NCBI GenBank assembly: GCA_002428445.1 | Contig: DIWJ01000043.1 | Span: 1 to 47,935, forward strand | From: Syntrophaceae bacterium UBA6109 | GTDB taxonomy: Bacteria; Desulfobacterota; Syntrophia; Syntrophales; UBA6109 | Direction of reading: 5' to 3' | DNA length: 47,935 bases | Part shown: piece by piece, positions 5,616-32,666 of the stretch | Numbering within the stretch: the stretch's first letter is position 1 | Layout of the letters: every line of letters begins with the position of its first letter | Translations under genes and position numbers: made by a program | Notes under the pieces: model-generated | The model's input: only the letters and a program-made list of their open reading frames with translations | The model's database searches: none | Told to the model about the DNA's origin: nothing

Positions 5616-7121
5616 TCATCCCTTGAAAAGACCGATGACACTTCGCTTCTCTTCCCGGTTCAGCGCCACAGCATAATAAGCACAGCCGAAAAGAATCGAC
5701 ATAAATCCCCCTTTCAAGAACAGGTCCTGAAAGCCGCCGATATCGAGGAATGCTTTCCTGAAGGGGAAGATAAGGCCGAAGGAAACAACACCTGCCAGAA
5801 CGGCGGGCAGCAAGGCGGACAGCAGATAATCCCTTATCTTCAGCTGCGCATATTTAAGAACAGAACCATGCATCACCCAGAAGCTTGTGAAGATATGGGA
5901 GACAATCATGGCCAGGACAATCCCGGGAAGGCCGATGTTATTCAGCAGTGCTATGGAAAGCGCCAAGTTCAAGACGGCATTCCACATCTCGGAATAGGTT
6001 ACCCACTTATTTTTGCCGATGCCCTGCAGCAGTGCGATGGCGGGTGTGCCCAAAGCGTGAAAAATGTTCATGGCCACGAGCAGGAGCAAAACGGGGAAGC
6101 CTGCAAAGCCTGCAGGTCCGACCCACAGGTTGATAAAGGCTTCCCCCCAGGAAAGCAATAGAGCAGCCACGAATACGGCAAGCGCGAAAGTGATTTTTAC
6201 GGTCTTCAGGTAGATTTCGCTTAAAGTCTTTATATCCTTCAATGCATAGGCTTCTGCAAATTTGGGCAGCATGCTCGTGGAGATGATGGAGAACAGGTAC
6301 GTGGTGTAAAAGCAGAGTTTGAAGGTGATGTCGTATGGCGTAACTGCGGAGACCCCCAAAATAATCCCGACCAGAATGGGCCCGGTATAATAAAGCATCC
6401 GGCTCGTCACGCCCAGGACAAATGTGCGGATACTGAAAGGCGCTATTTCTTTGAGTGTGTTCATGCTGGCTAGTCTGTGTGTGAAAATCAAGCCGTATTT
6501 GCCGCGCCTGATAAAATACAGGTAAAGGTAAACCAAAAGCACACTGCTCACCATTGAGGCGGCTGCCAGGCCTACAAGACCGAACCCGAACTTTAGAAAA
6601 AGAATCACAAGCAATGCATTTGTCAAAAGCTGGATGATGCTGGATGCTTTCCAGATATCCACCCGCTGGAAACCATAGAGGATATTACCGAACACGCTTG
6701 CAAGTATCATGAGCGCAACGTTCGCGCTCATGACAACAAATGCTGTCTTCGCCGGGGAAACAAGGTCCGTGGGGATTTCAAAAATGCCATCGATAAAGCA
6801 TGCAAGCGTGAATGAAGCCAGAAGTACCAGCAGGGCAATTGCTCCGAATATAATGATCGCGGTGGATGCCATTGCGCTTATTTTATCCTGCCGCTCTACC
6901 GCCCTGTATTCTGCTGTATACTTAGCGACAGCCGTATTCAATCCGAAATCAAGGAGAACAAAATACGTCATGATTGAGCTGAAAGCGGCCCAGACACCGT
7001 ATCCCGCCTGACCAAGATATTTGAGCATAAGTGGGGTTAACGCAAAATTCAGGACAAAGGCGACAAGAAGCTGGCCATAATTGATAAATACCCCCCGGAG
7101 AAAGACCCTTTTTTCAACCAT
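5616..7121 (-). CDS. wzx: Wzx-type oligosaccharide flippase
   Basis: This 501-residue membrane protein has about 12 to 14 transmembrane segments and belongs to the MATE/MOP exporter superfamily. The N-terminus runs RGVFINYGQLLVAF, then an LTPLMLKYLGQAGYG stretch (about residues 28-42), which is typical of polysaccharide flippases (Polysacc_synt families). Wzx moves undecaprenyl-pyrophosphate-linked repeat units from the cytoplasmic to the periplasmic leaflet for Wzy. It lies between a GT2 gene and the Wzy-like gene, as in many Wzx/Wzy-dependent O-antigen loci. No frameshift or truncation is visible, and the length is normal for the family. Confidence 0.85.
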   Translation of the reverse strand: MVEKRVFLRGVFINYGQLLVAFVLNFALTPLMLKYLGQAGYGVWAAFSSIMTYFVLLDFGLNTAVAKYTAEYRAVERQDKISAMASTAIIIFGAIALLVLLASFTLACFIDGIFEIPTDLVSPAKTAFVVMSANVALMILASVFGNILYGFQRVDIWKASSIIQLLTNALLVILFLKFGFGLVGLAAASMVSSVLLVYLYLYFIRRGKYGLIFTHRLASMNTLKEIAPFSIRTFVLGVTSRMLYYTGPILVGIILGVSAVTPYDITFKLCFYTTYLFSIISTSMLPKFAEAYALKDIKTLSEIYLKTVKITFALAVFVAALLLSWGEAFINLWVGPAGFAGFPVLLLLVAMNIFHALGTPAIALLQGIGKNKWVTYSEMWNAVLNLALSIALLNNIGLPGIVLAMIVSHIFTSFWVMHGSVLKYAQLKIRDYLLSALLPAVLAGVVSFGLIFPFRKAFLDIGGFQDLFLKGGFMSILFGCAYYAVALNREEKRSVIGLFKG

Positions 7122-7144: not shown

Positions 7145-7999
7145 CTAGGATTTTGAAGTGCCAGCTTTCTGTGAGTAAGGATACCGACTGCAGCGTCGGA
7201 AGGCGCGAAGCATGAACGGGAAAAAGGATTGAAGATGAAAAAGATCGATCATCAGGCTGGCATAATATCTCATCGCAAGAGGAGAGAAGCTGCTTCCGCC
7301 ATATTTCTTACTTACAAGATACGTGTTCCGGTAAACCGTCTTGCGCGCATCGAATGTCTGCGGATTGAACGCGCTTTCATGTATCATCGACCTGGACAAC
7401 ACCCTCTCGATGCTGTGAATTCGGAATTGCCTGGCTATCCTTAACATGACGTCGAAATCATCTCCAGAGGCATCCAGCCATCCGATGGAATCCATCACCT
7501 CTCGTCTGTAGAATGCGGACGTTGTACTGATATGCCGAGCGGTATTCGCAAATTCTCTGTAATCAAACGCTTCAACCTCGTGATGATATGCAACTTCTTG
7601 CTCCGCATCGACAAAATCGCAGTTCCCGTGCACAAAATGTGCTTCGGGGTGTTCGCAAAAAAAACGGACAACCGTCTCGACAGCGTCGGGCAGGTAGCGG
7701 TCATCGTATCCGATGGCTCCGAAGACGTTACCACTCGCCATCTTAAGCCCCTTGTTCCAAGCGTCACCCGGACCACTGTCAGGCTCAGATACAAATACAA
7801 TTCGGTCGGGATATCGTTCTCGGTATTTCGACAGAAGTTCGACCGTTCCATCCGTTGAGCCCCCGTCCACCAAAAGATGTTCTATACGAGGATACGTCTG
7901 CATGAGGACGCTCCGAATGCATCCTTCGAGATAATCCATGGCATTGAATGTCGGTGTTACGATGCTTACGAGTATATTGGTGTGCTTCTCCACGAACAC
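7145..7999 (-). CDS. GT2 family glycosyltransferase
   Basis: This 284-residue GT-A enzyme starts at a GTG codon. Diagnostic motifs are SIVTPTFNAMDYL (12-24), VDGGSTDGT (44-52), EPDSGPGDAWNKG (72-84) and GAIGYDDRYLPDA (94-106), where D99-D100 stand in for the metal-binding DXD. The EPDSG...DAWNKG segment is characteristic of the colanic-acid WcaA/WcaE-like GT2 subgroup. It would transfer a sugar from a nucleotide donor onto the lipid-linked oligosaccharide in the cytoplasm. The gene lies 5 bases after the radical-SAM gene and 23 before wzx, within one operon. The donor is not known. Confidence 0.85.
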   Translation of the reverse strand: MFVEKHTNILVSIVTPTFNAMDYLEGCIRSVLMQTYPRIEHLLVDGGSTDGTVELLSKYRERYPDRIVFVSEPDSGPGDAWNKGLKMASGNVFGAIGYDDRYLPDAVETVVRFFCEHPEAHFVHGNCDFVDAEQEVAYHHEVEAFDYREFANTARHISTTSAFYRREVMDSIGWLDASGDDFDVMLRIARQFRIHSIERVLSRSMIHESAFNPQTFDARKTVYRNTYLVSKKYGGSSFSPLAMRYYASLMIDLFHLQSFFPFMLRAFRRCSRYPYSQKAGTSKS

Positions 8000-8004
8000 T
8001 GCTC

Positions 8005-9972
8005 CTATCCGGCCTCGGTGATCTTATTTTCTGCCATTCGATACAGATAGGCCCCCTTCTTGTTGCCGTACCAGACAACTTCCCTGCACCAGAATTCCCA
8101 TGACGGCCAGGCGCTGGCCTCTCTGTCGATGATGTGACGGTAGTTGCCACTTTTCAGAGGAACTGAAATACCTTTCAGGGCTGATGTGTACAACTCCCAA
8201 ATGTTATGTCCAAGCGTCACGGCGGCATTCTCCTTCTGAAAAGGCTTTTTCAAAAGGACGTGGTTTAGGATCACCGCATCGTGGAGCGGACCCTCTGCTG
8301 CTTCTCCATTTCCGTCAAGAGAAAGGCGCTTCATCAAATGCTCCGCCTCGGCATAAAACTGGTCGAGCTCGCCTTGGGTACAAAGCCTGATAAACATCAA
8401 CTCATCTGCAGGCCACCAAAGATTCAGCCATTCCCTTGACTGGCAAAATTCCGCACCGCCGTTCTGCAGGTCCCCAGCTTTTTCAAAGAAGAATTGCCGA
8501 ATCCGGAAAAGGACGGGATAATCTTCACCGACATTCGCAAAGGCTTCAAGAAGCGTGCGATAACTCGTGGAAAAACATTGATGTAACAGGATAAAAGGTA
8601 TTTGGAGCAATTTGTCGAAATGGAGTAAAGAAGTGATCCATCCAAAAACCCTCACGCGAACCCACTCTTCCTTCGTCATTGAATTTGTGCCGACGACCAA
8701 TTCCTGGGTCTCTTCCACTTCCTCTTCATCCAAAAGGCTCCCGTGCGCGTTGATAATCTTCGTTTTAACGATCGCAAATCCATATCTTTTCTGGTACTGC
8801 TCATCCCCCATGTCCGAATTTGGAAGGATGGAAAGATTGTTAAACTGAATCCTGTGATGCTGCCCGCTTTCTATTACAGAGGACGCTCCATCAACAAAAG
8901 ATTCATACGTCTCGCAGGGCAATCCCAGAATAAGGTCTGTAAACGTCTCAATATTGTCCGCCGAGAATTTTTTCTGCAAGTCCTTGAAGTGTCCGATAGA
9001 AATATTCGACCGCTTAATGTGCGATAACGTTTCCCTGTTCAATGACTGCAAAGCAAGAGCCACGCCCTTGCTCAGCCCGGCTTCAGACATTATCTTTTCG
9101 ATCGCGTAAATGCGATCGGACGAATTTTTTGTGTTTTGCACTGAGAGGGCTTTCGGGAATCCCTTCGTCTTTTTGTTGGCCGAAAAATATTTGACAAATT
9201 CGATATCCCTCGGGAGTATTCCAAAATTCGCATCGCAGCAGAACACGAATTCGATCTCGTTGTTGCTGAACCAGTCGATTTCCCGATAAAGTCTTTCAAG
9301 ATCGAAGGCGAGCACCTTGCTTCTCGCGGCAGCCCCCCAGTCGCAGTACGCACAGGTGAATGGACACCCCCTGTTAGTCTCCCACAAAGCAATCCACTCC
9401 TCCTGAGGATACGCCTTCATGAGCGGCGCAAAAACGCCGCTCAAATAAGGAGATGGAATCGAATCAATGCAACCGATTCTTTCAACTGAAGGAGTAAGAA
9501 TCATCGCGCCATGATCGTCAAGAAAACCGATCCCGGGGATCTTCCGCCAATCCCCCGCAGCAAAATTTTCGAGAATCGACAGAGAAACCGCCTCGCCTTC
9601 ACCGGGCACGACAATGTCCACAAAGGGATGGGCCGCAAGAAATTCCCTTAATCTTCGAGATGGCACCTGCGGCCCGCCAAAGACGTTCACCACCTCCGGA
9701 TTCAATTGTTTGAGCTGTTCGGCAATCTTCAGCGAGAGTCCCATGTTCCACACATAAGCGCTGAAGAAAACGATCTGCGCAGGTTTGAGCCGTTCCACCG
9801 CGGGCACAACGTGAATCCTTTTGTAGAGTGGAAGAAGGAATTCTACCGGCAATGTCGCAGGAAGATGCTTCTGGATGTACGCCTGAATCAATCCGACTGA
9901 ATAGGGCAGATAATTGTGGTTTGCAAAGCTGTTATTGATCTGAACGAGACCGATGATTGTATGATTTCTCAT
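8005..9972 (-). CDS. B12-binding domain radical SAM protein
   Basis: This 655-residue protein has an N-terminal cobalamin-binding-like Rossmann domain (VFGGPQVP at 97-104, VDIVVPGEGE at 118-127) followed by a radical-SAM core with the cluster motif C203-x3-C207-x2-C210 inside GCPFTCAYCDWG. A long C-terminal region (about 400-655) has no motif I recognise. The B12 domain lacks an obvious DxHxxG base-off motif, as is usual for class B radical-SAM proteins. Such enzymes catalyse methylations, ring contractions or epimerisations. Its place between an aldo/keto reductase and a GT2 in a sugar operon suggests modification of a sugar or lipid-linked glycan; that is inference. It needs a 4Fe-4S cluster and low oxygen, which suits an anaerobe. 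Confidence 0.8.
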   Translation of the reverse strand: MRNHTIIGLVQINNSFANHNYLPYSVGLIQAYIQKHLPATLPVEFLLPLYKRIHVVPAVERLKPAQIVFFSAYVWNMGLSLKIAEQLKQLNPEVVNVFGGPQVPSRRLREFLAAHPFVDIVVPGEGEAVSLSILENFAAGDWRKIPGIGFLDDHGAMILTPSVERIGCIDSIPSPYLSGVFAPLMKAYPQEEWIALWETNRGCPFTCAYCDWGAAARSKVLAFDLERLYREIDWFSNNEIEFVFCCDANFGILPRDIEFVKYFSANKKTKGFPKALSVQNTKNSSDRIYAIEKIMSEAGLSKGVALALQSLNRETLSHIKRSNISIGHFKDLQKKFSADNIETFTDLILGLPCETYESFVDGASSVIESGQHHRIQFNNLSILPNSDMGDEQYQKRYGFAIVKTKIINAHGSLLDEEEVEETQELVVGTNSMTKEEWVRVRVFGWITSLLHFDKLLQIPFILLHQCFSTSYRTLLEAFANVGEDYPVLFRIRQFFFEKAGDLQNGGAEFCQSREWLNLWWPADELMFIRLCTQGELDQFYAEAEHLMKRLSLDGNGEAAEGPLHDAVILNHVLLKKPFQKENAAVTLGHNIWELYTSALKGISVPLKSGNYRHIIDREASAWPSWEFWCREVVWYGNKKGAYLYRMAENKITEAG

Positions 9973-10031
9973 GAACGCACCTGCACAGCGTAATGGGCCT
10001 GCTTGCCTTTCTTATGCACGAAAAGGATGGA

Positions 10032-11000
10032 TTACTCTGATCGTTTCCCTGCGGGAATAAAAAAAACTGACGAAGAATATATTTCTCGGATGAGGGAGAT
10101 TTCTTCTGCAGAAAGACAATCGAGGTCGCTCGCTGCCGTATTTTCTTCAACATGATTGCAGTGTGTCATGCCCGGTATGGTCGTGGAAATCCCGCTGAAA
10201 GCAAGGCAGAATTTCAAGGCAAAGCATGTTGCACTCCACCCGCGCGCTGTATAGAGAACCTTAAACTTGTCCATGGCGCCGGCCCATAGGTTTCTTTGAT
10301 CCCTTGACCAGTACGCACGGTGGTCGTCAGGCCCGAATTCAGTGTCGTGATCTATGCCCCCGCTTAAAAAACCGAAAGAAAGAGGTGTTCTTGCTATCAG
10401 GGCGTTATCACGCATCTGCGCCTTTTGAAGCAATCCGCAATCGATAAGACGTTGATCTATGATATTGAAATTCACCTGCAGCGTTTCAAACAGGTCAACG
10501 GAAAGGGCGCGGAGCCCCTCATCGGGGGAACGCACCGAGACTCCGATGAATCGGATTTTGCCTGACTGCTTCAAATTTTCAAGCGTCTTGAGCGTTTTAT
10601 CGTTGTTCCATACATCCGCAGTCGGACTGTGAAGCTGATACACATCAATGTAATCCGTCTGCAGTCTCCTCAGACTGCCCTCGACGCTTTCACAAATGTG
10701 TCTGACGGAGAAATCCTGCGTCATACTGGTGCCTTTATAAGATACAATTCCCGCCTTCGATGCGATAACGATTTTGTCTCTCACATCCTTCAGGGTTGCA
10801 CCGATGATCCTTTCACTGCGGCCGGCGCCATAGGCATCCGCTGTGTCGAAAAAATTTATCCCTTTCTCAAAAGAAAGCCGCAATGCTCGCGAGGATTCAG
10901 AATCGTCGATTGGCCCATAGGCGTCTCCACCTATCCCCCACGCGCCGAAGCCTATTTCAGAAACCTTCAGTCCCGTCCTGCCCAGTTTGCGATATTTCAA
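10032..11000 (-). CDS. Aldo/keto reductase
   Basis: This 322-residue enzyme has the complete AKR catalytic tetrad: D52 and Y57 in FFDTADAYGAG, K82 in ASKAG and H124 in YQLHSP. The N-terminus MKYRKLGRTGLKVSEIGFGA is standard for the family, but the codon used is TTG, one base after the TGA of the upstream SDR gene (TGAATTG), so translation is probably coupled. AKRs reduce carbonyls with NAD(P)H. In a nucleotide-sugar operon the likely role is reduction of a keto-sugar intermediate or of a transketolase-derived carbonyl; the latter is speculative. It is followed by the B12/radical-SAM gene after about 60 bases. Confidence 0.85.
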   Translation of the reverse strand: MKYRKLGRTGLKVSEIGFGAWGIGGDAYGPIDDSESSRALRLSFEKGINFFDTADAYGAGRSERIIGATLKDVRDKIVIASKAGIVSYKGTSMTQDFSVRHICESVEGSLRRLQTDYIDVYQLHSPTADVWNNDKTLKTLENLKQSGKIRFIGVSVRSPDEGLRALSVDLFETLQVNFNIIDQRLIDCGLLQKAQMRDNALIARTPLSFGFLSGGIDHDTEFGPDDHRAYWSRDQRNLWAGAMDKFKVLYTARGWSATCFALKFCLAFSGISTTIPGMTHCNHVEENTAASDLDCLSAEEISLIREIYSSSVFFIPAGKRSE

Positions 11001-11001
11001 T

Positions 11002-11985
11002 TCAAGTCTCTGATTTCATTTTCAGCTTGCTGGAAACCCTCAACAAAGAGGGATTCGTCTCATAGGTATCGATAAACCACCGGATGGTCTTCTCAACCCC
11101 TGTCCGGAAGGGTGTGTAGCAAAACCCGGACATTCCGACGAACATGGAATTGTCCGTGCTCTTTTTCTGAATGCCCTGCGGCTTTGTTAGATCAAATTCT
11201 ATCCGTCCTTTGTCGATATCCATGACTTCCGCAATCATATAGGCAATCTCTTTAACGGAATGCTCTTCCGTACTACCGATGTTCAGCACCTGCTCGCCAT
11301 CATAATGGAAAAAACTCCACATATAAGCTCGCGCTATATCTTTTGAATATGTATACTCCCTTAATGGCGACCCGTCTCCCCAGATAACGATTTTTGATTC
11401 ATTATATTTGTTCTCATAGAACCTGCGTATCAACGCCGGAAGCATCGATGCATCTTCGTAGTTGAAGCTGTCGTGCTCCCCGAATATCCCGTTGGGAATC
11501 AAACCAACGACATTCATCCCGTATTCAGTGCGATACGCTTTGATGGAAATATCCACAAGTCTCTTTGCAAATGCATAGCTTGCATTGGACGGATGCGGAT
11601 AGCCTTCGTGAATGGCATCCTCCCTGAGAGGATTCGGGGCATTTGCGGGGTACATTCCCGAACTCAGGGTCATGATGGTTTTTCTCACCTTGAAGCTTCT
11701 TGCGGCCTCCAATACGTTCAAGGTCATCAATACATTGTCGCGAAGAAGCGTCGCAGGGTGGTTGATGCTAAGCCCGACGCCGCCGCTGAGCGCCGCGAGA
11801 TGAATGATCGCATCGGGCCTGCAGCGATCCACAAATTGCATGGTTTCTCCGGCGTTCGTCAGGTCGCAGTCTTTAAAGCTGATTGGAAGGAATTGACATT
11901 CCGGGTAGTCATTTTGCAGAGAGCAAAGAGCGCTGCCAACAAGAGCAGTCCCTCCGGTAACAAGTATTCTCGTTCTGCCTTTGAT
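11002..11985 (-). CDS. GDP-L-fucose synthase-like SDR with a non-AUG start
   Basis: This extended SDR resembles GDP-fucose synthase: TLSSGMYP (about residues 106-113) holds the active-site Ser, and YAFAK (137-141) the Tyr and Lys. The first ATG, at 11841, would remove the cofactor fold. The open frame upstream of it encodes RILVTGGTALVGSAL, a perfect NAD(P)-binding motif, so the real protein begins earlier. There is no ATG, GTG or TTG between that motif and the in-frame TAG that ends the upstream transketolase gene (11998-12000). The best-placed codon is ATC at 11985, seven bases after GGGGAG, giving 327 residues; CTG at 11991 is the alternative. Either initiation is non-canonical, the base is a variant or error, or the TAG is read through. 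Confidence 0.75.
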   Translation of the reverse strand: MKGRTRILVTGGTALVGSALCSLQNDYPECQFLPISFKDCDLTNAGETMQFVDRCRPDAIIHLAALSGGVGLSINHPATLLRDNVLMTLNVLEAARSFKVRKTIMTLSSGMYPANAPNPLREDAIHEGYPHPSNASYAFAKRLVDISIKAYRTEYGMNVVGLIPNGIFGEHDSFNYEDASMLPALIRRFYENKYNESKIVIWGDGSPLREYTYSKDIARAYMWSFFHYDGEQVLNIGSTEEHSVKEIAYMIAEVMDIDKGRIEFDLTKPQGIQKKSTDNSMFVGMSGFCYTPFRTGVEKTIRWFIDTYETNPSLLRVSSKLKMKSET

Positions 11986-11997
11986 AAACAGTCTCCC

Positions 11998-12954
11998 CTA
12001 CGATCCTTTTCGCATTTCGTTAATCGTGTTGACGATGCTTTCCTCATCAATACCGTTCAATTTGTGCAGATATTCCCTGGATCCCAGTTCGAAAACATGC
12101 CTTTCGCTGAAGCCCATTCTTTTTATTTCGCCGCTGTCGTTGCTCCGAATTCCCGATATCAGACTGTCAAGCCCGCCTCCATGGATAAAGCCCTCTTCAA
12201 GGGTTACGAGTTTGCGATACTTCTTTAAAGTATTGCATAGTGCATCCTCGTTGAGCGGCTTCAGCATAAATACATCGACAACCCCAACGTCGACATTTCT
12301 CTCGCCCAGTATCTCTGCAATCTTCAGCGCCTTGTGGGTCATGTAACCAGTCGAAACGATGCCAATGCCGTCTTTACCCCTTTTCAATTCGCAAAAACCA
12401 TCTTCAAAATTGACTTCATCGCCTTTGTAGATCTCAGCTACCGCTTTCCCCTCCAGACGGAGATATTTCGGTTTGTGTACTGTCAGAGTATTATCAACAA
12501 ATTTCTCCACCAGCGTGCAATCGCTGGGGACGAACGTCGTAAAATTTGGAAGGAGCCTCATGAGCGTCAGATCTTCAAGACAATGGTGGGTTGGCCCGGA
12601 TACATTATAGCTTAAGCCGGCGCTGACGCCGATGAGATTCACGTTAAGAGGCTTTGTTTGAGCCATAAGCGATAAGTTCGTGCGTATCTGCTCGTAACAG
12701 CGCATCGTAATGAAAGCCGACACCGCGTAAGCATACACGATAAATCCTTCCAGGGCGAATCCTGTCGCGACATTTATCAAATTTTGTTCCGCAATTCCCA
12801 CATTGATAAACCGGTCGCTAAATTTCTCCTTCAGCTTATCCAGCGCAGGGGCCCCAAAATCTGCGGATAGGAACATGATCCTTTCATCACCATGCATTCT
12901 GGTGAAGATGTTTTCAATCAACACATTTCTCATTATCCTTGGCTGCTGCTGCAT
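11998..12954 (-). CDS. Transketolase, C-terminal subunit (split enzyme)
   Basis: This 318-residue protein matches the pyrimidine-binding and C-terminal domains of transketolase. NVGIAEQNLINVATG at 51-65 contains the catalytic glutamate (E56) that activates thiamine diphosphate. LGSREYLHKLNGID near the end is typical of split TktB/DXS-like subunits. It pairs with the N-terminal subunit just upstream (1-base gap) to form an alpha2-beta2 enzyme that moves two-carbon ketol units between sugar phosphates. A split transketolase inside an O-antigen operon suggests a dedicated role: supplying sedoheptulose 7-phosphate, or adding a C2 unit to a keto-sugar. Its stop codon is in frame with the following SDR, which has no normal start. 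Confidence 0.88.
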   Translation of the reverse strand: MQQQPRIMRNVLIENIFTRMHGDERIMFLSADFGAPALDKLKEKFSDRFINVGIAEQNLINVATGFALEGFIVYAYAVSAFITMRCYEQIRTNLSLMAQTKPLNVNLIGVSAGLSYNVSGPTHHCLEDLTLMRLLPNFTTFVPSDCTLVEKFVDNTLTVHKPKYLRLEGKAVAEIYKGDEVNFEDGFCELKRGKDGIGIVSTGYMTHKALKIAEILGERNVDVGVVDVFMLKPLNEDALCNTLKKYRKLVTLEEGFIHGGGLDSLISGIRSNDSGEIKRMGFSERHVFELGSREYLHKLNGIDEESIVNTINEMRKGS

Positions 12955-12955
12955 T

Positions 12956-13777
12956 TCAATTTCCTATCAGCTTATCGATCTCGTCGCTCCTCAGCGACTT
13001 TATGTGGCAGAGCGAGTCGCCTTCCAATTGAGGCACTCCCTTGCCTTTCACTGTATTGGCGATCATGACCCTGGGACAGGAACTTTCGTCATCCTTTATC
13101 TTCTTCAGTCTGGTATATACTTCGGTGATGTCGTGCCCATCTACGACATCGACTTTCCAGCGGAAGGCTTCGAATTTTTCGTTCAAAGGCTCCAGATCCA
13201 AGACTTTTTTGCAATAATCCAACATGCAGATCTTGTTATAATCGATAATCAGAATGAGATTGTCGATCTTATGGTGCCCGGCAAACATGATGGCCTCCCA
13301 TACGGAACCTTCATACAATTCACCGTCACCCATCAGGACAAACACCTTTGAGCCGTTCTTCTTCCTCTTCAACGCAAGGGCGGAACCGCAAGCGACCCCA
13401 AGCCCCTGACCGAGGGATCCGTTGATCGTCTCAACACCCGGGATCATCGTGTCCGGAATTCCCCCCAAAAAAGATCCCTCGCTGCAAACCTTACTCAATG
13501 AACCCCGATCGAAGAAACCGAGATCGGCTAAAATGGGATACATCGACACCGCTCCATGTCCCTTGCTGATAATGAACCGATCTCTATGGTCCCATTGCAG
13601 ATCGTCATGCTTGAAGGCCAGAATCTCACCATAGTACAGTGAAACGAATACTTCAATGTCCGACAGTGAGGAGGCAAGCCGCGTCTCCGGGGCGATCCTG
13701 TGGATTTTCAATGTTTCTTGTCTGACCCAGTGGACCCTGTCAAGAAGATACTGAATCTTGTCACTCTCGTTTTTCAT
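12956..13777 (-). CDS. Transketolase, N-terminal subunit (split enzyme)
   Basis: This 273-residue protein is the thiamine-diphosphate pyrophosphate-binding half of transketolase. It has SKGHGA at 71-76, GSLGQGLG at 120-127, and the GDG signature at 150-152 (MGDGELYEGSVWEA) leading to the metal-ligand Asn in IDYN (178-181). The length is typical for stand-alone N-terminal subunits (270-285). It starts immediately after the TGA of the SDR upstream and is followed one base later by the C-terminal subunit, so the two are made together. Which sugar substrates it uses cannot be read from the sequence; the context points to the activated-sugar pathway rather than central metabolism. Confidence 0.88.
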   Translation of the reverse strand: MKNESDKIQYLLDRVHWVRQETLKIHRIAPETRLASSLSDIEVFVSLYYGEILAFKHDDLQWDHRDRFIISKGHGAVSMYPILADLGFFDRGSLSKVCSEGSFLGGIPDTMIPGVETINGSLGQGLGVACGSALALKRKKNGSKVFVLMGDGELYEGSVWEAIMFAGHHKIDNLILIIDYNKICMLDYCKKVLDLEPLNEKFEAFRWKVDVVDGHDITEVYTRLKKIKDDESSCPRVMIANTVKGKGVPQLEGDSLCHIKSLRSDEIDKLIGN

Positions 13778-14734
13778 TCAGTTACCCGTTTTTTCTCTGT
13801 TCTCCCGATACCATTTGTACGTTATCCGCAGACCGTCTTCAATGGATGTGGCGGGTTCCCATCCCAATTGAAAGATTTTCGAACTGTCCAGAAGTTTTTG
13901 GAAAGGACCGTCAGGTTTCGATATATCCCATCTGATTTTTCCACTGTACCCTATTTCTCCTGCGATCAGATTGGCCAGTTCGCTGATGGAAAGATCGACT
14001 CTCGTACCGACGTTATAATGTGTGTTCTCAAGTTTTTCTGCATTCTGCACCATGAAGATCGATGCCTCAGCCACATCCTCGGAAAAAATAAATTCTCTTC
14101 GAGGGTTGCCGCTTCCCCAAAGCGTAACTTCCTCCAATCCGAGTTCTTTGGCTTCATGGAACCTCTTTATCAAGGCGGAAAATACGTGAGAATGTTCAAT
14201 GCTGAAGTGGTCGTTTGGACCATATAGAGTGCTGGGAATGAGACAAATGAACCGATTCGTCTGGTACTGAATGTTGTAAGCCTTGGATGCAAGAATGCCG
14301 CTCAACTTAGCGGCGGCATAGGCCTCGCTCGTTTCTTCCAGCGATCCTTTCAGAAGGAATGACTCTTGAATAGGCTGCTTTGAGTCCTTTGGATATGTGC
14401 AGGAGGATCCGTAATAAACAACGTGCTTTGCTTCACATCTATTGGAAGCTTCGAAAACAATATTCTGAACCATGGAGTTTTCGTATAGAAACGATGCTGG
14501 ATAGGTGCTGCACATTCTGATATTACCAGCGCGTCCAGCAGCCATAAATACGATTTCGGGTCTTTCTTCGCTGAAAAAATCGTCCACGGCTCTCTTGTCA
14601 GTCAGTTCCATCTCCTGATGGGAGCGCGTTACAATGTTCGTCCAGCCGGACTCCGTCAGTTTCTTCATCAGTGCTGACCCGAGAAGCCCCTTGTGCCCTG
14701 CTACGAATATTTTGGAATTCTTCGATATTTTCAT
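13778..14734 (-). CDS. GDP-L-fucose synthase-like SDR (epimerase/reductase)
   Basis: This 318-residue extended SDR has the fucose-synthase-type cofactor motif AGHKGLLGSAL (12-22), the NIRMCSTYP segment (71-79) that follows AAGRAG, the catalytic GSSCTYP (109-115) and YAAAK (139-143). Fucose synthase converts GDP-4-keto-6-deoxymannose to GDP-fucose by 3,5-epimerisation and 4-reduction; homologues act on GDP-heptose intermediates in capsule loci. No GDP-mannose 4,6-dehydratase is recognisable in the window, whereas heptose kinase- and guanylyltransferase-like genes are directly upstream, so a GDP-heptose substrate is at least as likely. Its ATG overlaps the GHMP kinase stop (ATGA). A second homologue is at 11002. 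Confidence 0.82.
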   Translation of the reverse strand: MKISKNSKIFVAGHKGLLGSALMKKLTESGWTNIVTRSHQEMELTDKRAVDDFFSEERPEIVFMAAGRAGNIRMCSTYPASFLYENSMVQNIVFEASNRCEAKHVVYYGSSCTYPKDSKQPIQESFLLKGSLEETSEAYAAAKLSGILASKAYNIQYQTNRFICLIPSTLYGPNDHFSIEHSHVFSALIKRFHEAKELGLEEVTLWGSGNPRREFIFSEDVAEASIFMVQNAEKLENTHYNVGTRVDLSISELANLIAGEIGYSGKIRWDISKPDGPFQKLLDSSKIFQLGWEPATSIEDGLRITYKWYRENREKTGN

Positions 14735-15843
14735 TTTTCCGCCGAAGGGTCACGTCGTTTTGCCGATACAAGATCACCTGCTGCGCTATCCATTTTAAGT
14801 TCTTTGAACGGATTGATGGGATTTCTTCTACGCTCCTCATCCAAGTCGGGGTGGTTGTCGCGAGGGTCGTAAAATATGACTTGGCTTCCGGCATTCTCAA
14901 ACTGAAACGGGACATAGATCAGGTTACTGAAGGTAGCGATAATTTTTTTCTGCGCATCCGGTGGCGCGAAGAGGAGCATAAAACCACCTCCGCCTGCACC
15001 AAGAAGCTTGCCTCCAATGGCTCCGAGTTTCAGCGCCCGATTATATAAGTCATCCACACTTTCGTTTGTCACATGAGTGCTGAGGCTCTTCTTTATGCAC
15101 CAGGCCTCATGCAGCAGTTTCCCGAAAAAAACGATATCGGAAGAACCGTTCAGGAGTGAAAGGGCGTCCCCGACAAGCCTTTGAAATTCACTCATCTGCC
15201 GCCCGCGCGACTGGATATTATTTACATAGCTTTCGGCTACGTGCGCCGCCGTGCGTTTTATCCCCGTATAGAACAACATCATGTGCGCGTTCAGCTCAGC
15301 GACCCTTGATCTGTCAATCGTGATCGGTATCACGGATATATCGCCACCCTGCGGGAAGACAATCCGATTCAGTCCTCCGTAGGTAGCCAAGACCTGATCT
15401 TGCGATCCGACCGTCTCCTTCATGACTTGCTGCTCAAGGTAGATACTCTCTTGCGCAAGTCGATGCTTATCGATCATACGGCCTTCAAGAGAGTATAGAG
15501 CATGCAGCAGGCCAACCACAAACGATGAGCTCGATCCTATGCCGCTGCGCGCCGGAAGGTCGCCGTCATGATGAATTTCCACCCCTCTGTGAATGTTCAG
15601 AAAGCGCAGTCCCTCACGCACGGCAGGATGCTGAATTTCATCGACCGAAGAGCAATTCTCTATCTTCGAATAGACGATCCTGATTCTATGCTCAAAAAAC
15701 GGCGGCAAATAACGACACGTCAAATAGCAGTACTTATCTATCGTTGTTGCGAGCACTTCCCCGCCGTTCTTCAGGTACCATCCCGGATAATCTGTGCCTC
15801 CTCCAAAGAAGGAGATTCGGTAAGGGGTTCTGGTGATAATCAT
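14731..15843 (-). CDS. hddA: GHMP kinase, HddA/WcbL-like heptose-7-phosphate kinase
   Basis: This 370-residue sugar kinase opens with TRTPYRISFFGGGTDYP (4-20), the signature of HddA/WcbL kinases that phosphorylate D-glycero-D-manno-heptose 7-phosphate at O1. The GHMP glycine/serine-rich ATP loop is PARSGIGSSSSF (97-108), and the C-terminal motif KLLGAGGGGFMLL (about 285-297) completes the active site. Substrate assignment within GHMP kinases is uncertain, since fucokinase-like enzymes look similar. The neighbouring guanylyltransferase-like gene, with which it overlaps by four bases, supports a GDP-heptose route. The isomerase GmhA and phosphatase GmhB needed for that route are not in the window. 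Confidence 0.75.
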   Translation of the reverse strand: MIITRTPYRISFFGGGTDYPGWYLKNGGEVLATTIDKYCYLTCRYLPPFFEHRIRIVYSKIENCSSVDEIQHPAVREGLRFLNIHRGVEIHHDGDLPARSGIGSSSSFVVGLLHALYSLEGRMIDKHRLAQESIYLEQQVMKETVGSQDQVLATYGGLNRIVFPQGGDISVIPITIDRSRVAELNAHMMLFYTGIKRTAAHVAESYVNNIQSRGRQMSEFQRLVGDALSLLNGSSDIVFFGKLLHEAWCIKKSLSTHVTNESVDDLYNRALKLGAIGGKLLGAGGGGFMLLFAPPDAQKKIIATFSNLIYVPFQFENAGSQVIFYDPRDNHPDLDEERRRNPINPFKELKMDSAAGDLVSAKRRDPSAEK

Positions 15844-16553
15844 AATTTCTTGAAAAGCAGATCCGCTTTCGCGTAATCATCGGGGGTCCCGATGTCTAAA
15901 AAAATAGCCTCATTCGTGAACCCATAGAATTTCTTCCCAATGAATAACGGGAGAATTTCTCTCTCTAAAGAGACACAACGATCCTGCGGAATCGATGCAA
16001 TGATCTCCCGGTCCAGGAAATAGACTCCTGCATTAATCCATCCCCGTCCCGCAAATGCACCTTTTTCTTCAAAAGCCAGGATACCATTCCGTTCGTCGAT
16101 TTTAACGCGGCCATATCTACTCGTGTTGCTGACAGAAGTCAAGATAATTGACGCAACTGCGCTATTTTGCTCATGGAAATTCAAAAAGTCCCACAAATCA
16201 CATTCGCAGTAGGAGTCTCCATTCATGACCAGGACGGTGTCGGAATTCATCAAGCTCAGTGCATTGCGGAGTGCGCCTCCGGTGCCCAGGGGTTCATATT
16301 CATACGAATAACGCAGAGACAGATTTCCGTAAGACGGACCCATTTCCGCTTCTATGTACTTCCCCATGTATCCTACGCAGAGGATGATATCCTTGAAGCC
16401 CGCAGCGTTGAGCTGATCCAAGATGTAGGCCAAAAAGGGCCTTCCATGAATCAAGGCCATCGCCTTAGGGCGATCGCTTACAACAGGCTTCAAGCGAGAT
16501 CCCAAGCCACCGACGAGGATGGCTGTGCTGATATTCTTCAATCGCAATACCAT
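15840..16553 (-). CDS. hddC: Sugar nucleotidyltransferase, HddC-like (heptose-1-phosphate guanylyltransferase)
   Basis: This 237-residue enzyme is a GT-A-like nucleotidyltransferase with the pyrophosphorylase motif AILVGGLGSRL (11-21), the conserved DRPKAM lysine region (28-32), LGTGGAL and the metal-binding VMNGDSY. HddC-type enzymes join heptose 1-phosphate and GTP to make GDP-heptose; close relatives use other sugar 1-phosphates. The ATG at 16553 is chosen. A TTG at 16571 that overlaps the upstream stop codon would add six residues. The gene overlaps the downstream kinase gene by four bases, so activation by kinase and guanylyltransferase is coupled at the translation level. The sugar is inferred from context. 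Confidence 0.72.
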   Translation of the reverse strand: MVLRLKNISTAILVGGLGSRLKPVVSDRPKAMALIHGRPFLAYILDQLNAAGFKDIILCVGYMGKYIEAEMGPSYGNLSLRYSYEYEPLGTGGALRNALSLMNSDTVLVMNGDSYCECDLWDFLNFHEQNSAVASIILTSVSNTSRYGRVKIDERNGILAFEEKGAFAGRGWINAGVYFLDREIIASIPQDRCVSLEREILPLFIGKKFYGFTNEAIFLDIGTPDDYAKADLLFKKL

Positions 16554-16567
16554 GACTGTAAAAGCGA

Positions 16568-17506
16568 TCAAACGTTCTTGAACAGACTTTTCCCGAGCAT
16601 GCCGTAGCCCTTCAACAATTCTTTGATCCCGAAATCAATGGATTTCTTCGCCTCAAAGCCGGCCTCCCGCAGACGCTGATTCGAAACAATGTAATTCCGC
16701 TTATCCGGATCGCTGCCCACCTCTGAACAATGTATGAAGAAATTCGGCACGTATTCCTTTACCTTCAGCGCCAGTTGCTCTTTGGACAGATTCGCCGCAT
16801 CGAGACCCACGTTGTACGGCAACCCCTTCATCTTGTCCCTATTCTTGATGCAGTGGCAGAAACAATCCGCCACATCGCGAACATGGATGTAGTTGCGCTT
16901 GAAGTCCTTCTCATAAATGACGATGTAGCCGTCTGTGATCGCCGCATAAACGAAATGATTGACGAGAAGATCGAGACGCATGCGCGGCGACATCCCAAAA
17001 ACAGTGGCCAATCTCAGGGTAATCGCGTTGGGGCTGTTCAACAGCCCCTGTTCCGCCTCCACTTTCGTCCGCCCGTAAAGAGTGATCGGTTCGAGCGGCG
17101 TTTCCTCCGTACAGTAAACGTCCCCCGACTTGGTGCCGTAGCCGCTGTTCGTTGTGGGATAGACGACCCACTGAGACTGGCTTCGCAGGCGGTTGATCAT
17201 TGTTATCGCATCGAGGTTGATGGACGTGGCCGCCCACGGATCCCTGTCACAAGCGGGCGCCCCGACGATGGCCGCCAAGGGGATGATCACATCGGGATTC
17301 CGGAGCACTTGCTTAAGGATTCTTTCGTCCCGTACGTCTCCCCTTACAAAATCGAATTTCTCGTGAGCGCAAAGATGAAAAAGGAAACCCTGCCCATAGA
17401 GAAGATTGTCAAGGACCGTCACATGATATCCATCTTTCAATAAATGCTCGCAAAGAATAGACCCTAGATAGCCCGCTCCGCCCGTGACCAATACCCTCTG
17501 CTCCAT
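16568..17506 (-). CDS. NAD-dependent epimerase/dehydratase (extended SDR)
   Basis: This 312-residue protein starts with RVLVTGGAGYLGSILCE (4-20), the dinucleotide fold of extended SDRs. The catalytic region is TTNSGYG (118-124) and YGRTK (144-148), with Asn-Ser in place of the usual Ser-Ser. The family converts nucleotide sugars by epimerisation, dehydration or reduction. It begins the compact block of sugar-nucleotide genes and has a good GGGAGG ribosome-binding site, with a 120-base gap behind the Wzz-like gene. Its stop overlaps the alternative TTG start of the guanylyltransferase gene. It may act on the GDP-heptose made by the next genes, or as a 4-epimerase; the substrate is unknown. Confidence 0.8.
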   Translation of the reverse strand: MEQRVLVTGGAGYLGSILCEHLLKDGYHVTVLDNLLYGQGFLFHLCAHEKFDFVRGDVRDERILKQVLRNPDVIIPLAAIVGAPACDRDPWAATSINLDAITMINRLRSQSQWVVYPTTNSGYGTKSGDVYCTEETPLEPITLYGRTKVEAEQGLLNSPNAITLRLATVFGMSPRMRLDLLVNHFVYAAITDGYIVIYEKDFKRNYIHVRDVADCFCHCIKNRDKMKGLPYNVGLDAANLSKEQLALKVKEYVPNFFIHCSEVGSDPDKRNYIVSNQRLREAGFEAKKSIDFGIKELLKGYGMLGKSLFKNV

Positions 17507-27323: not shown

Positions 27324-28613
27324 GTGGAAGAAAATCAGGATACTAAGGACTTAGAAAGATTCTATGCTCTTCTGAGTCAAAGCATCCCTTGGCTTATCGG
27401 CATCTTTCTTTTTTTCAACCCTTTCCCGCACACGACGGCCATTCGGGAAATCAGCTTCTATCTCTGTCTGCTGATTTTTCTTGTTTTACTTTTCACGCAG
27501 AAAGGAAATTTCTTATTTCGCACGCCCCTTTCAGTGCCCTTCGTGTTATTCGTCATCTGGAGTTGTCTAGGACTGCTTTTTGCTTTGAACAAGGCGAACA
27601 GTATCCACGATATCTATGCGCATTTACTAAAATATTTATTTCTCTTCTTTATGGTCATCAATTTTTTCAACTCAAGAAAACATTTTCAGATCCTCGCATG
27701 GACCTTTGTCATCTCCACAAGCATCCTTGTTTCCGTACTGCTGATCCACGACTATGCAATTTTACACCGCCCGCTCATTGATAAGCTCGGATATGGTTTC
27801 CCGGAGACATCGCCGAATATTGTAGGCGTACTTACTTTGTTTAGCATGTTATTATCCTTTTTTCTTTTCTCAAGACGATTTTCCTTCTATCAGAATGCTC
27901 TTCTCATGGCATCCTTTTGCCTTTCTACCTTTGCGACATTGGCGACACAGGCGAGGAGCGCCGTGCTTGCTATGGTTTTGGCTGTCGCCGTAATGTTTCC
28001 TGTAAGAAGAAAAGTGCTCATATGGTTTCTTGTTGCTGCTGTTGCGCTGGCAGCATTATTCATGCCCGTAAAAAACCTGTTTTCTCCAGAAGCAATCCTG
28101 GCGAAAATGAAATCCGACGATCGGATACGCATCTGGTTATGCTACGCCGAGATCATCAAAGACCATCCGATCTTCGGCGTCGGTTTTGGAATGCAGACCT
28201 GCTACGACACCAAACTTCTGGCGAAATACAATGCCAGAGTGCCTGAAAAATACAGGCAGTCTTATCTATACAATGCACCCCACAACATGCTCGTCGATAC
28301 GGCTACACGCACCGGCCTTGTCGGTCTGGCCCTGTTCCTCTATATCCTTCTTTCCTTCGTGAAAATGGGATGGCAGCTGATTCGGAACGGGCGGAACCAA
28401 TTCATCAGGGATTGGAGCCTGTGCGTCATGGGGACGTTTGTCGCCGTTTTCGTTCAGGGGATGTTCGAAAACACCCTGAGCGGCCCGCCGGCGGTGATCC
28501 TGTACAGCATCCTTGCCATGATGACCATCCTCTGGCGGATGCAGCATGAACCGCCAAGCATACCCCGGGCCGGGGTATCAGCGTCAAACAGCACCGGCGA
28601 GCCGAATGCCTGA
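27324..28613 (+). CDS. waaL: O-antigen ligase family protein (WaaL-like)
   Basis: This 429-residue membrane protein has about 11 to 12 transmembrane helices and a periplasmic loop (about 265-335) with the Wzy_C/WaaL hallmark: DDRIRIWLCYAEIIKDHP followed by FGVGFG, then APHNMLVD, which gives the conserved Arg and His of the ligase. WaaL moves O-antigen from undecaprenyl pyrophosphate to the lipid A core. The start is GTG, preceded by AAAGG. It heads a plus-strand unit of LPS genes. A Wzy role is possible, since the superfamily is shared, but another candidate at 4198 lies beside wzx. Confidence 0.72.
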   Translation: MEENQDTKDLERFYALLSQSIPWLIGIFLFFNPFPHTTAIREISFYLCLLIFLVLLFTQKGNFLFRTPLSVPFVLFVIWSCLGLLFALNKANSIHDIYAHLLKYLFLFFMVINFFNSRKHFQILAWTFVISTSILVSVLLIHDYAILHRPLIDKLGYGFPETSPNIVGVLTLFSMLLSFFLFSRRFSFYQNALLMASFCLSTFATLATQARSAVLAMVLAVAVMFPVRRKVLIWFLVAAVALAALFMPVKNLFSPEAILAKMKSDDRIRIWLCYAEIIKDHPIFGVGFGMQTCYDTKLLAKYNARVPEKYRQSYLYNAPHNMLVDTATRTGLVGLALFLYILLSFVKMGWQLIRNGRNQFIRDWSLCVMGTFVAVFVQGMFENTLSGPPAVILYSILAMMTILWRMQHEPPSIPRAGVSASNSTGEPNA

Positions 28614-28629
28614 AGGCAGAAGACCTACA

Positions 28630-29838: not shown

Positions 29839-30051
29839 AGATTCCCGCCCTATACGGTATGCATTCGGCATGATTCAACCATCGGGCAATGCCGGAAAGC
29901 ATCAAAAGGGGCCCTTATCCGCAACATCTTACGATGGTCGCCTGTTTCCCGGAGACATTACAGGTTGTCCGCACGAGATCCCGGCATCTTCGCTTGATCT
30001 TGAAATGTCTGATTGATTGCCCTCACAAGAGACAGCAGATTATCAATACGA

Positions 30052-30798
30052 ATGACGATGAAGAAAATTTCAGTTATTCTGACGGCATGGATGAGGCCCC
30101 AATATCTGGAAGAGCAGGTGGATCGTATCCTGAACCAGACCATTCGGCCTCACGAAATCGTCTTGTGGTATAACATGCCTCCGAAGAAACTCGGGTTCTT
30201 TGAACAAAAACAGCTCGTCTCCTTCCAGAATGATCGTTATGTGAAAAAAATCATCTGCGATCACAACTTTGGCATTATCCCCCGCTTTACCGTGGCTTCG
30301 TGCATGGAAGGCGATTATGTATGCATCCTTGATGACGACACGATGCCTGGAGAGCGCTGGTTTGAGAACTGCCTTGAATATGTAGACAGCCGCCGGGTCC
30401 TGTGCGGAACGATCGGCCTGCGCTATCTTTCGACAACGGAACTCAAGACGGAAAAGCCGCGGATGGGGTGGGAAACGATGAATCGAACCATCGAGGCCGT
30501 TGATCTGGTGGGTCACAGTTGGTTCTTCCGAAGAGAGTGGGCTCGATATTTCTGGGACGAAGAGCCCCCATCTCGAACCTTTGGAGAAGATATCCATTTT
30601 TGCGCCATGCTCCAACGCCATGAGATTGGAGCGGCCTGTCCGCCTCATCCTCCTGAGGACAAATCACTTTGGGGTTCGGTAAAGCCCCATCTCGGCGTGG
30701 ATAAAGTGGCGATCAGCTGCAGTTCGGACAAGTCGGCAGATTTCTGGATGGTCGTCCGCAGTGAAATAGAAAGGGGGTACAAACCTATCCTCTTATGA
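30052..30798 (+). CDS. GT2-like glycosyltransferase
   Basis: This 248-residue protein has a GT-A-type core: ISVILTAWMRPQYLEEQ after the start, a PHEIVLWYN strand, and CILDDDTMPGERW with a DDD triad for metal binding. It lacks the usual DNGSTDGT motif, so it is a divergent GT2. The conserved REWARYFW and GEDIHFCAML segments suggest an acceptor-binding GEDI-type acidic cluster. Its stop overlaps the start of the UDP-GlcNAc 2-epimerase gene in an ATGA overlap, so the pair is coupled and the transferred sugar may be a ManNAc derivative. The start could also be the ATG at 30058. A 213-base gap precedes it, without visible features. Confidence 0.72.
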   Translation: MTMKKISVILTAWMRPQYLEEQVDRILNQTIRPHEIVLWYNMPPKKLGFFEQKQLVSFQNDRYVKKIICDHNFGIIPRFTVASCMEGDYVCILDDDTMPGERWFENCLEYVDSRRVLCGTIGLRYLSTTELKTEKPRMGWETMNRTIEAVDLVGHSWFFRREWARYFWDEEPPSRTFGEDIHFCAMLQRHEIGAACPPHPPEDKSLWGSVKPHLGVDKVAISCSSDKSADFWMVVRSEIERGYKPILL

Positions 30799-31847: not shown

Positions 31848-31904
31848 TGCGCCTCGCGGATGAGAATGGCAAATGGCAGGCGGAGCGGAAAGGAACCATG
31901 TCTC

Positions 31905-32633: not shown

Positions 32634-32666
32634 TATGCTTCAGGACCTTCAAGGAGCCGCCGAGCA

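Follow-up and report, generated by a model that had tools for sequence, protein, structure and literature searches.

The window, by which we mean the whole stretch of 47,935 nucleotides analysed from contig DIWJ01000043.1 of Syntrophaceae bacterium UBA6109, carries nine genes on its minus strand between positions 8005 and 17506. All nine were confirmed, and gene coordinates together with Pfam assignments bore out the earlier description of a one-strand run of mostly overlapping or adjoining genes: neighbours overlap or have 0-1 base between them, apart from the radical SAM and aldo/keto reductase genes, which are separated by 59 bases. Adjoining this cassette on the same strand are genes for a family 2 glycosyltransferase (7145..7999, Pfam PF00535) and a Wzx-type flippase of polysaccharide assembly (5616..7121, Pfam PF01943). 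No 3-dehydratase, GmhA or GmhB gene was found among the nine.

At the high-coordinate end lies an SDR of the Pfam epimerase family (16568..17506) that matched PDB 6vo6/6vo8, with 361 bits to 6vo6 over residues 1-311, a full-length match at 52% identity. Across the SDR family (the window plus 55 family rows), identity to 6vo6 ranged from 48 to 67% with a median of 56%. We take 6vo6 to be Campylobacter Cj1427, the enzyme oxidising GDP-heptose to GDP-4-keto-heptose, and on this resemblance the window SDR would likewise make GDP-4-keto-heptose. This SDR had stayed generic in the earlier note, and it is key to reading the locus. It is followed by a putative sugar-1-phosphate nucleotidyltransferase resembling HddC and mannose-1-phosphate guanylyltransferases (15840..16571, NTP_transferase; 179 bits to man1P_GTase_Rv, also below cut-off) and a GHMP sugar kinase, a candidate HddA-like anomeric kinase (14731..15843, Pfam; PDB 4usk, 3k85 and 4n3o). 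Based on their scores against the NCBIfam models for HddC (162 bits, cut-off 300) and HddA (127 bits, cut-off 600), the two proteins appear to belong to the same superfamilies as HddC and HddA, a subfamily resemblance only, and are not filed as members.

Two fucose-synthase-like SDRs, both of the Pfam epimerase family, flank the transketolase genes. The first (13778..14734) contains all five residues that, with their roles, we take to be catalytic in E. coli GMER (S107, C109, Y136, K140 and H179), as do 34/54 rows of the Fcl-like cluster, and is predicted to be of the C3/C5 epimerase / C4 reductase type; it has 5/5 residues but falls outside GDP-L-fucose synthase proper at 362 of 500 bits (GDPFucSynFcl). 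The second (11002..about 11990), apparently of reductase type, is without the epimerase Cys and His (residue set SGYKS), scored 208 bits against a cut-off of 500 and has a relative in Azospirillum sp. B510 (59%). No ATG, GTG or TTG start precedes its Rossmann motif, so an ORF opened at the first ATG would lack the NAD-binding end. The HddA, HddC and fucose-synthase names proposed previously hold as subfamily-level resemblances, whereas as family assignments they do not, all scores lying under cut-off (127/600, 162/300, 362/500 and 208/500). A reading in which the locus makes only GDP-fucose was rejected: the nine genes include no GDP-mannose 4,6-dehydratase, while its kinase, nucleotidyltransferase and Cj1427-type SDR are in keeping with a heptose. 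The remaining tailoring genes encode an aldo/keto reductase (10032..11000, Pfam PF00248), a candidate side-chain ketone reductase also found near the transketolase in locus L005 and Azospirillum sp. B510, and a B12-binding, radical SAM protein (8005..9972, Pfam) with CxxxCxxC at residue 203. Despite this motif and the B12 domain, the latter reached 273 of 700 bits against NF033712, a resemblance only to KedN5-like C-methyltransferases.

The split transketolase comprises a ThDP-binding (N) half (12956..13777, Transketolase_N, PF00456; PDB 6yak) and a pyrimidine/C half (11998..12954, Transket_pyr and Transketolase_C, PF02779/PF02780; PDB 6yaj). Of the TktA residues that we take to be ThDP/Mg-binding and catalytic, H66, D155, N185 and H261 were retained in 75/75 N rows and E411 and H473 in 82/82 C rows, window included, in an alignment of transketolase ORFs above 150 bits and N halves longer than 240 residues. 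Those presumed to recognise sugar phosphate and hydroxyls (H26, H100, S385, H461, D469 and R520) have almost all been exchanged. In the window, R stands for H26, I for H100, P for S385, S for H461, S for D469 and G for R520. Family-wide, H26 was replaced in 74/75 N rows (all R) and H100 in 74/75 (I in 73/75), with S385 replaced in 81/82 C rows (P in 77/82), D469 by S/A/T in 81/82 and R520 by G/A/S in 81/82; the H461 position held G in 80 and S in 1 of the 81 rows located by motif. The enzyme has thus kept its cofactor and catalytic residues and lost those presumed to recognise sugar phosphates. Canonical H26, H100, D469 and R520 were kept in a related transketolase beside an SDR and kinase in Azospirillum sp. 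B510 and in a second-copy transketolase beside some cassette genes (L020), while L084 kept H26, H100 and D469 with K at 520; the residue change is therefore not needed for pathway membership. In L083 and L085, Q aligned at H66.

To place the cassette among its relatives, the transketolase C half was used as the scan query, and the best 80 of 188 loci, spanning many phyla, were compared using gene clusters named from one or two members each by comparison with family libraries. Of these, 37/80 had at least 7 kb on each side and 43/80 fell outside this well-flanked set, including L058, absent from the neighbourhood count with its C-half ORF not picked. The 37 well-flanked loci contained the transketolase N half (36), SDR (33), kinase (31), nucleotidyltransferase (31), B12 radical SAM (29), DegT-like (27), Fcl-like (21), L-2-hydroxyglutarate-oxidase (11) and GmhA (6) clusters. 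The ThDP enzyme gene is thus accompanied by a Cj1427-type, predicted 4-keto-sugar-forming SDR in the window as in 33/37 loci, and the suggested tie between split transketolase and HddA/HddC-like heptose activation was confirmed across phyla (31/37 for each activation gene). The SDR was missing from 4/37 loci and the kinase or nucleotidyltransferase from 7, and the split transketolase was retained in cassettes without the first Fcl-like SDR. Most DegT-like proteins, for which RfbH was the best family (one member compared), are predicted to be of the 3-dehydratase type, with His at the PLP-lysine position in 48/52, Lys in 3 and one giving no motif match but His by eye. The oxidase occurred in 11/33 loci with the SDR versus 0/4 without, a difference that was not significant (0.23), and 3/18 oxidase loci (L022, L061 and L062) showed no SDR. 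GmhA-like genes were detected in 9 of the best 80 loci, and GmhA and GmhB are present in some sister cassettes. Related gene sets were found in many unrelated bacteria and some phages.

Co-occurrence, which the earlier note had proposed as a check, was also better than chance within a 297-genome sample of one phylum. Under limits chosen after the scores were seen (transketolase clade at least 250 bits, kinase at least 350 bits), the clade was present in at least 7/297 genomes, and the kinase in 7/7 of these versus 9/290 others (Fisher 3e-10), on which chance clustering of the two was rejected for this sample; with E 1e-60, the search threshold, kinase matches came from 34/297 genomes. Six more distant split transketolases (L086-L091) sit in other loci, and no kinase of at least 350 bits was detected in their genomes (0/6), with weaker matches on other contigs in G125 and G233. 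Among 23 host genomes of relatives, 22 encoded a further transketolase-type (Transketolase_N) protein, 12 with a match above 400 bits, and all 23 contained the GmhA family, compared with 3/14 controls. Some sister loci carried a different ThDP enzyme near the SDR: seven SDR-bearing plasmid records encoded a PDH-type E1-alpha/beta pair (4), a split transketolase (2) or neither (1). SDR and C-half matches among the 297 genomes are lower bounds, the best seven or fewer candidates having been scored per genome; the at least 13 SDR-bearing genomes included the clade transketolase (5, one on another contig), a transketolase fragment at a contig end (1), an E1 pair (5, two weak) or neither (2). In the stretches read, no ThDP enzyme was detected in two SDR-bearing genomes and one plasmid; one of these contigs is 3 kb and another cuts the SDR. 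PDH-type E1 enzymes are described as acetylating keto-sugars (PMC12247030).

We consider it probable that the locus serves to make a nucleotide-activated, C4-branched heptose for a surface polysaccharide, its two-carbon branch added by the split transketolase. The sequences themselves show the gene families, their conserved co-localisation, the active-site replacements and the E1 pairs of sister loci; from these we infer the acceptor, donor, step order and product. Sedoheptulose 7-phosphate would be turned into GDP-D-glycero-D-manno-heptose by GmhA, GmhB, the kinase and the nucleotidyltransferase together, and the Cj1427-type SDR would oxidise C4 of this nucleotide sugar. The tightly bound NADH of this SDR may be re-oxidised by 2-oxoglutarate, giving a by-product open to recycling by the L-2-hydroxyglutarate oxidase of some cassettes. 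The C3 hydroxyl would next be lost, in most relatives, through a PLP 3-dehydratase, a step with no gene among the window's nine, and epimerisation at C3/C5 may be the work of the first fucose-synthase-like SDR. The C4 ketone would then receive an activated two-carbon unit from the split transketolase and become a tertiary alcohol, as in yersiniose formation by YerE. Reduction or tailoring of the branch might fall to the aldo/keto reductase and second fucose-synthase-like SDR, and C-methylation of the product is the probable task of the B12 radical SAM enzyme. The two-carbon unit could be hydroxyacetyl, as in ordinary transketolase chemistry, or acetyl drawn from pyruvate; the lost phosphate-binding residues and Ile in place of H100 would favour the latter. 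Addition of a two-carbon unit to a keto-sugar, one of two options in the earlier note, gains support from the neighbouring Cj1427-type SDR, the 3-dehydratase-type protein (27/37) and the sister-locus E1 pairs. Against C4 branching, the intact epimerase/reductase residues of the first Fcl-like SDR leave room for reduction of C4 instead, although the split transketolase persists in cassettes that lack this gene. The missing 3-dehydratase, GmhA and GmhB, and the relatives showing no SDR, no kinase or nucleotidyltransferase, or no ThDP enzyme, also count against it. More tentatively, and at somewhat less than even probability, this C4-branched GDP-heptose pathway may be widespread and horizontally exchanged (many phyla, plasmids and phages) with split transketolases and PDH-type E1 pairs as interchangeable ThDP carboligases. 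The main lineage of these transketolases (H26R, H100I, S385P, H461G, D469S and R520G) may, on this view, have given up sugar-phosphate recognition and become YerE-like by evolution, taking its two-carbon unit from a 2-oxo acid and passing it to a ketone on a nucleotide sugar.

The other option, that the locus makes its own sedoheptulose 7-phosphate with the split transketolase, is prompted by the adjoining HddA/HddC-type kinase and nucleotidyltransferase and by the GmhA-like genes in 9/80 loci. We rejected it as highly improbable on paralogue and active-site evidence: 22/23 genomes contain a further transketolase-type protein (12 above 400 bits) and hardly any family row retains the sugar-phosphate-binding residues. 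Moreover, the ThDP enzyme near the SDR of some sister loci is a PDH-type E1 pair, which does not make sedoheptulose 7-phosphate by known chemistry. In lincosamide biosynthesis, a longer ketose is made by a transaldolase route and then activated to GDP-octose. A similar extension here, by transketolase to, for example, octulose phosphate, could be served by the kinase, nucleotidyltransferase and GmhA-like isomerase, yet it appears improbable given the lost phosphate-binding residues, an SDR family 48-67% identical over 56 rows to what we take to be a GDP-heptose dehydrogenase (6vo6), and E1-alpha/beta pairs that point to a ketone acceptor.

Somewhat less improbable, though still unlikely, is action of the ThDP enzyme on a later intermediate or other carbonyl (another ring ketone, exocyclic C6/C7 or the finished glycan), yielding a chain-extended rather than C4-branched sugar. 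The reductase/epimerase SDR and radical SAM enzyme could create such carbonyls, and step order is unreadable from sequence; however, the core association is with a C4-oxidising SDR (33/37), and the analogue YerE uses a 3-deoxy-4-keto sugar (PMC12247030), DegT-like proteins, mostly of predicted 3-dehydratase type, being present in 27/37 loci.

If correct, C4 branching would give the sugar a structure open to testing, a heptose with two carbons at C4, for which Azospirillum sp. B510 and Solidesulfovibrio magneticus RS-1 are suitable strains, and would widen the range of ThDP enzymes that branch surface sugars. It would also account for a large family of transketolases (5067 members at E <= 1e-30, many of which may be ordinary transketolases) and offer many candidates for biocatalytic tertiary alcohols, a transketolase reaction that, according to a 2025 review, still awaits demonstration in vitro (PMC12247030). 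Consistent with the earlier statement that no described pathway has this set, no description of it was found in open-licence PMC papers; the use of split transketolases for keto-sugar branching has, however, already been proposed, for miharamycin and amipurimycin (PMC12247030).

Among known systems, the GDP-heptose pathways of Campylobacter jejuni likewise combine HddA/HddC-type activation with a Cj1427-type C4-dehydrogenase, and include a PLP 3-dehydratase (the C3-dehydratase of HS:5) acting on GDP-4-keto-heptose and C4-reductases (PMC10680097). The main text of that source mentions no ThDP carboligase and lacks the word "transketolase" (PMC10680097), whereas most loci here include a split transketolase or E1 pair. 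YerE, in yersiniose branching of LPS, is likewise a ThDP enzyme that adds two carbons to a 3-deoxy-4-keto nucleotide sugar of a surface polysaccharide, but belongs to the decarboxylase superfamily and acts on a CDP-hexose (PMC12247030); here the enzyme is a split transketolase and the substrate presumably a GDP-heptose. The aldgamycin and kibdelomycin acetyltransferases, PDH-type E1-alpha/beta enzymes (alpha-keto acid dehydrogenase 2), also perform ThDP-dependent two-carbon branching (PMC12247030), and the sister-locus E1 pairs are likened to them by Pfam make-up, PDH-type E1 being a ThDP superfamily different from the window transketolase. In the miharamycin and amipurimycin clusters, a split-gene transketolase is likewise proposed to add hydroxyacetyl to a keto-sugar; the 13 candidate split transketolases of the review come without exception from Streptomycetes, and in vitro characterisation is reported for none of them (PMC12247030). 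Likened to these by description, the loci reported here differ in being surface-polysaccharide loci of many phyla that carry GDP-heptose genes.

The split transketolase of the cassette (ThDP-binding N half, 12956-13777; pyrimidine-C half, 11998-12954) probably adds a two-carbon unit to C4 of GDP-4-keto-heptose, for a C4-branched surface heptose. Gene calling and family searches recovered the nine minus-strand genes at 8005-17506 as the earlier note had described them, within a surface-polysaccharide region encoding a Wzx-type flippase, glycosyltransferases, a UDP-GlcNAc 2-epimerase, a DegT protein and an O-antigen ligase-family protein. G+C was ~0.47-0.50 across the cassette vs ~0.57-0.62 beyond 33 kb of the window. 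A second glycan group occupies the plus strand at 27324-33830 (O-antigen ligase-family protein, several glycosyltransferases, another UDP-GlcNAc 2-epimerase), and the flank at 33834-46184 encodes FolD, thiolase, acyl-CoA dehydrogenase, AMP-binding protein, iron-sulfur/CCG protein and ETF alpha, which we take to be typical for a fatty-acid- or aromatic-oxidising anaerobe.

The SDR at 16568-17506 aligned end to end (361 bits, 52% identity) with PDB 6vo6/6vo8, titled 'putative sugar-nucleotide epimerase/dehydratease' and presumably Cj1427. In the literature, Cj1427 is described as carrying out the C4 oxidation in the Mlgh pathway (PMC7949155) and GDP-4-keto-heptose as the substrate of a PLP C3-dehydratase and C4-reductases (PMC10680097). 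Among the fucose-synthase-like SDRs, Fcl1 (13778-14734) retained all five GMER residues and could epimerise C3/C5 ahead of branching; Fcl2 has lost C109 and H179. Upstream of its Rossmann motif, the Fcl2 gene (11002-11997) had no ATG, GTG or TTG, and a purine-rich stretch, a possible ribosome site, stood a few bases upstream of CTG and ATC codons; the gene may use a rare start codon, or the sequence may contain an error. No 3-dehydratase was detected among the nine genes, and the product may therefore retain its 3-hydroxyl. The radical SAM protein (8005-9972) resembled KedN5-type methyltransferases with a score below the cut-off.

Related loci were retrieved by searching genome contigs with a C-half profile built from 26 sequences (that of the window plus 25 of the 120 listed out of 5067 matches). 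By record title, the best 80 of 188 confirmed loci spanned Planctomycetes, Nitrospirae, Omnitrophota, Elusimicrobia, several candidate phyla, archaea and delta-, epsilon- and gammaproteobacteria. Counting same-strand genes within 10 kb, the 37 loci with at least 7 kb either side of the C half encoded the N half (n = 36), SDR (n = 33), HddA-like kinase (n = 31), HddC-like nucleotidyltransferase (n = 31), B12 radical SAM cluster (n = 29), DegT-like cluster (n = 27), Fcl-like SDR (n = 21), FAD protein (n = 11) and GmhA (n = 6); across all of the best 80 of 188, flank-limited loci included, these counts were 73, 54, 54, 53, 56, 49, 44, 18 and 9, respectively. One locus, L005, nearly matched the window in gene content and order, with the SDR at another position (nucleotidyltransferase, kinase, SDR, Fcl1, N half, C half, Fcl2, aldo/keto reductase, radical SAM, glycosyltransferase, flippase), and another, L071, encoded a GmhB that passed the cut-off of a subfamily model, as well as a GmhA-like isomerase whose score fell short of its cut-off. 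The 3-dehydratases ColD and RfbH carry His at the PLP-lysine position, and His replaced this lysine by motif in 48 of 52 DegT-like proteins, Lys being present in three and His, by eye, in one without a motif match. The nearest family of the DegT-like protein in locus L045 was RfbH, below cut-off.

Residues were compared with E. coli TktA over 75 N-half and 82 C-half rows, the window among them. H66, D155, N185, H261, E411 and H473 were retained in every row, whereas H26 was replaced by R (74/75; R33 of the N half), H100 by I (73/75), S385 by P (77/82), D469 by S, A or T (81/82) and R520 by G, A or S (81/82). For H461, a motif-based reading gave G in 80 of 81 rows and S in one, and R358, which did not align automatically, matched an invariant R9 by eye. 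The replaced residues are phosphate and donor-hydroxyl contacts, and their loss would therefore disfavour ketose phosphate donors; pyruvate would fit. The strong exception was the second copy in L020, a locus with two split transketolases, one with signature and one with canonical residues.

A 95-row C-half tree, built with signature columns included, separated the signature family (82 rows) from the remainder by a branch at 100/100; around it lay a larger group of 86 rows, also at 100/100, to which L083-L085 and the second L020 copy belonged. Q aligned at H66 in L083 and L085. The window's C half grouped with L006 and L005. Phylum labels required 32 changes on this tree (least possible 15; shuffled mean 50.0), a partly clustered, partly scattered pattern compatible with transfer, which bins and paralogues can also give. 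More distant split transketolases (34-39% C-half identity) occurred in other loci, L086-L091, several with sugar-type genes and no kinase or nucleotidyltransferase in the stretch read; these may represent other uses of split transketolases. Two of these loci, L087 and L090, had as common neighbours a 221-aa protein and, by eye, an HAD-like protein. Four phage contigs from IMG/VR also bore cassette genes: L095 (nucleotidyltransferase, kinase, both transketolase halves, B12 radical SAM, DegT-like; portal and terminase by PHROGs), L094 (both halves, radical SAM, DegT-like, portal, terminase), L096 (apparently like L095, without nucleotidyltransferase and kinase in the stretch covered) and L097 (DegT-like, Fcl-like, both halves, adjoining primase-type and Mom-like genes). 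Phage transketolases had R/I and P/(S, T or V)/G at the signature positions, and no Cj1427-type SDR was found in the four contigs beyond one weak match.

Further Transketolase_N proteins were present in 22 of 23 genomes tested, with a match at >400 bits in 12 and weaker matches, mostly split halves, in 10; G004 had a single Transketolase_N match. The role of the locus transketolase is thus predicted to be other than central metabolism. GmhA-family matches occurred in 23/23 genomes vs 3/14 controls, above the curated cut-off in 4/23. The earlier note had asked whether split transketolase and HddA-like genes co-occur in other genomes, and they did so among 297 genomes sampled evenly across the phylum to which the L005 genome belongs: at limits chosen after scores were seen, all seven genomes with a transketolase at ≥250 bits had a kinase at ≥350 bits vs 9 of 290 others (Fisher 3e-10). 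With at most seven candidates scored per genome in the C-half and SDR searches, the SDR was found in five of these seven vs 8/290 (1.4e-6). C-half alignment matches at E ≤1e-60 occurred in at least 13 of the 297, and none of the six genomes with a weaker transketolase match had a kinase at ≥350 bits. Kinase and SDR were both encoded in six genomes that lacked a transketolase of this clade; the transketolase is therefore an add-on to a GDP-4-keto-heptose route and not a constant component.

A search of plasmids with the SDR gave seven records. Azospirillum sp. B510 encoded SDR, kinase, tktN, tktC, Fcl2-like protein and aldo/keto reductase (56, 55, 43, 30, 59 and 47% to the window, respectively), with SDR and kinase on the opposite strand and no nucleotidyltransferase in the stretch examined; its transketolase retained canonical H26, H100, D469 and R520, and transketolases of this type may use ordinary donors. 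A. argentinense Az39 carried tktN/tktC, B12 radical SAM protein, SDR and kinase. Instead, A. lipoferum 4B, A. thermophilum, A. ramasamyi and Solidesulfovibrio magneticus RS-1 had an E1-alpha/E1-beta pair (Pfam assignment run for three of the four) and a DegT-like protein with His, and plasmid pDMC1 of S. magneticus added kinase, nucleotidyltransferase, Fcl-like SDR, the L-2-hydroxyglutarate-oxidase-type gene lhgO, SIS protein and radical SAM protein. Sinorhizobium fredii had no ThDP enzyme within 9 kb, and its DegT-like proteins had Lys. The 13 SDR-bearing genomes of the 297 comprised five with the clade transketolase (in G141 on a separate contig), five with an E1 pair (weak in G238 and G288, 97-115 bits), G222 with a partial transketolase where its contig ends, and G177 and G198, with no ThDP enzyme in 12 kb of a contig that cuts the SDR and in a 3-kb contig, respectively. 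The occurrence of two unlike ThDP enzyme types in this pathway context would be best explained by a common chemistry, carboligation to the 4-keto sugar.

L-2-hydroxyglutarate-oxidase-type genes, hinting at by-product recycling, occurred in 18 of the best 80 of 188 loci (e.g. L005, L045, L071 and L076); the Cj1427-type SDR was present at 15 of these and was not found at the other three; the L045 FAD protein scored 336.8 bits against a model cut-off of 299. Among well-flanked loci the oxidase accompanied 11 of 33 with the SDR vs 0 of 4 without, a difference that was not significant (0.23), and the weakness of this link slightly lowered our confidence in C4 branching.

Precedents exist both for ThDP enzymes that accept ketones and for pathways through GDP-4-keto-heptose. 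The review PMC12247030 describes PDH-type E1 pairs that use pyruvate to acetylate keto-sugars, as YerE does in LPS; for miharamycin/amipurimycin it lists split transketolases as proposed enzymes that lack in vitro proof (13 sequences, all Streptomycetes). The main text of PMC10680097, on GDP-heptose modification pathways, does not contain the word transketolase, and among the titles and abstract openings listed by searches of open-licence PMC literature none described a transketolase with GDP-heptose genes. The union of a ThDP branching enzyme with a GDP-4-keto-heptose pathway, and the spread of that union, appear to be new.
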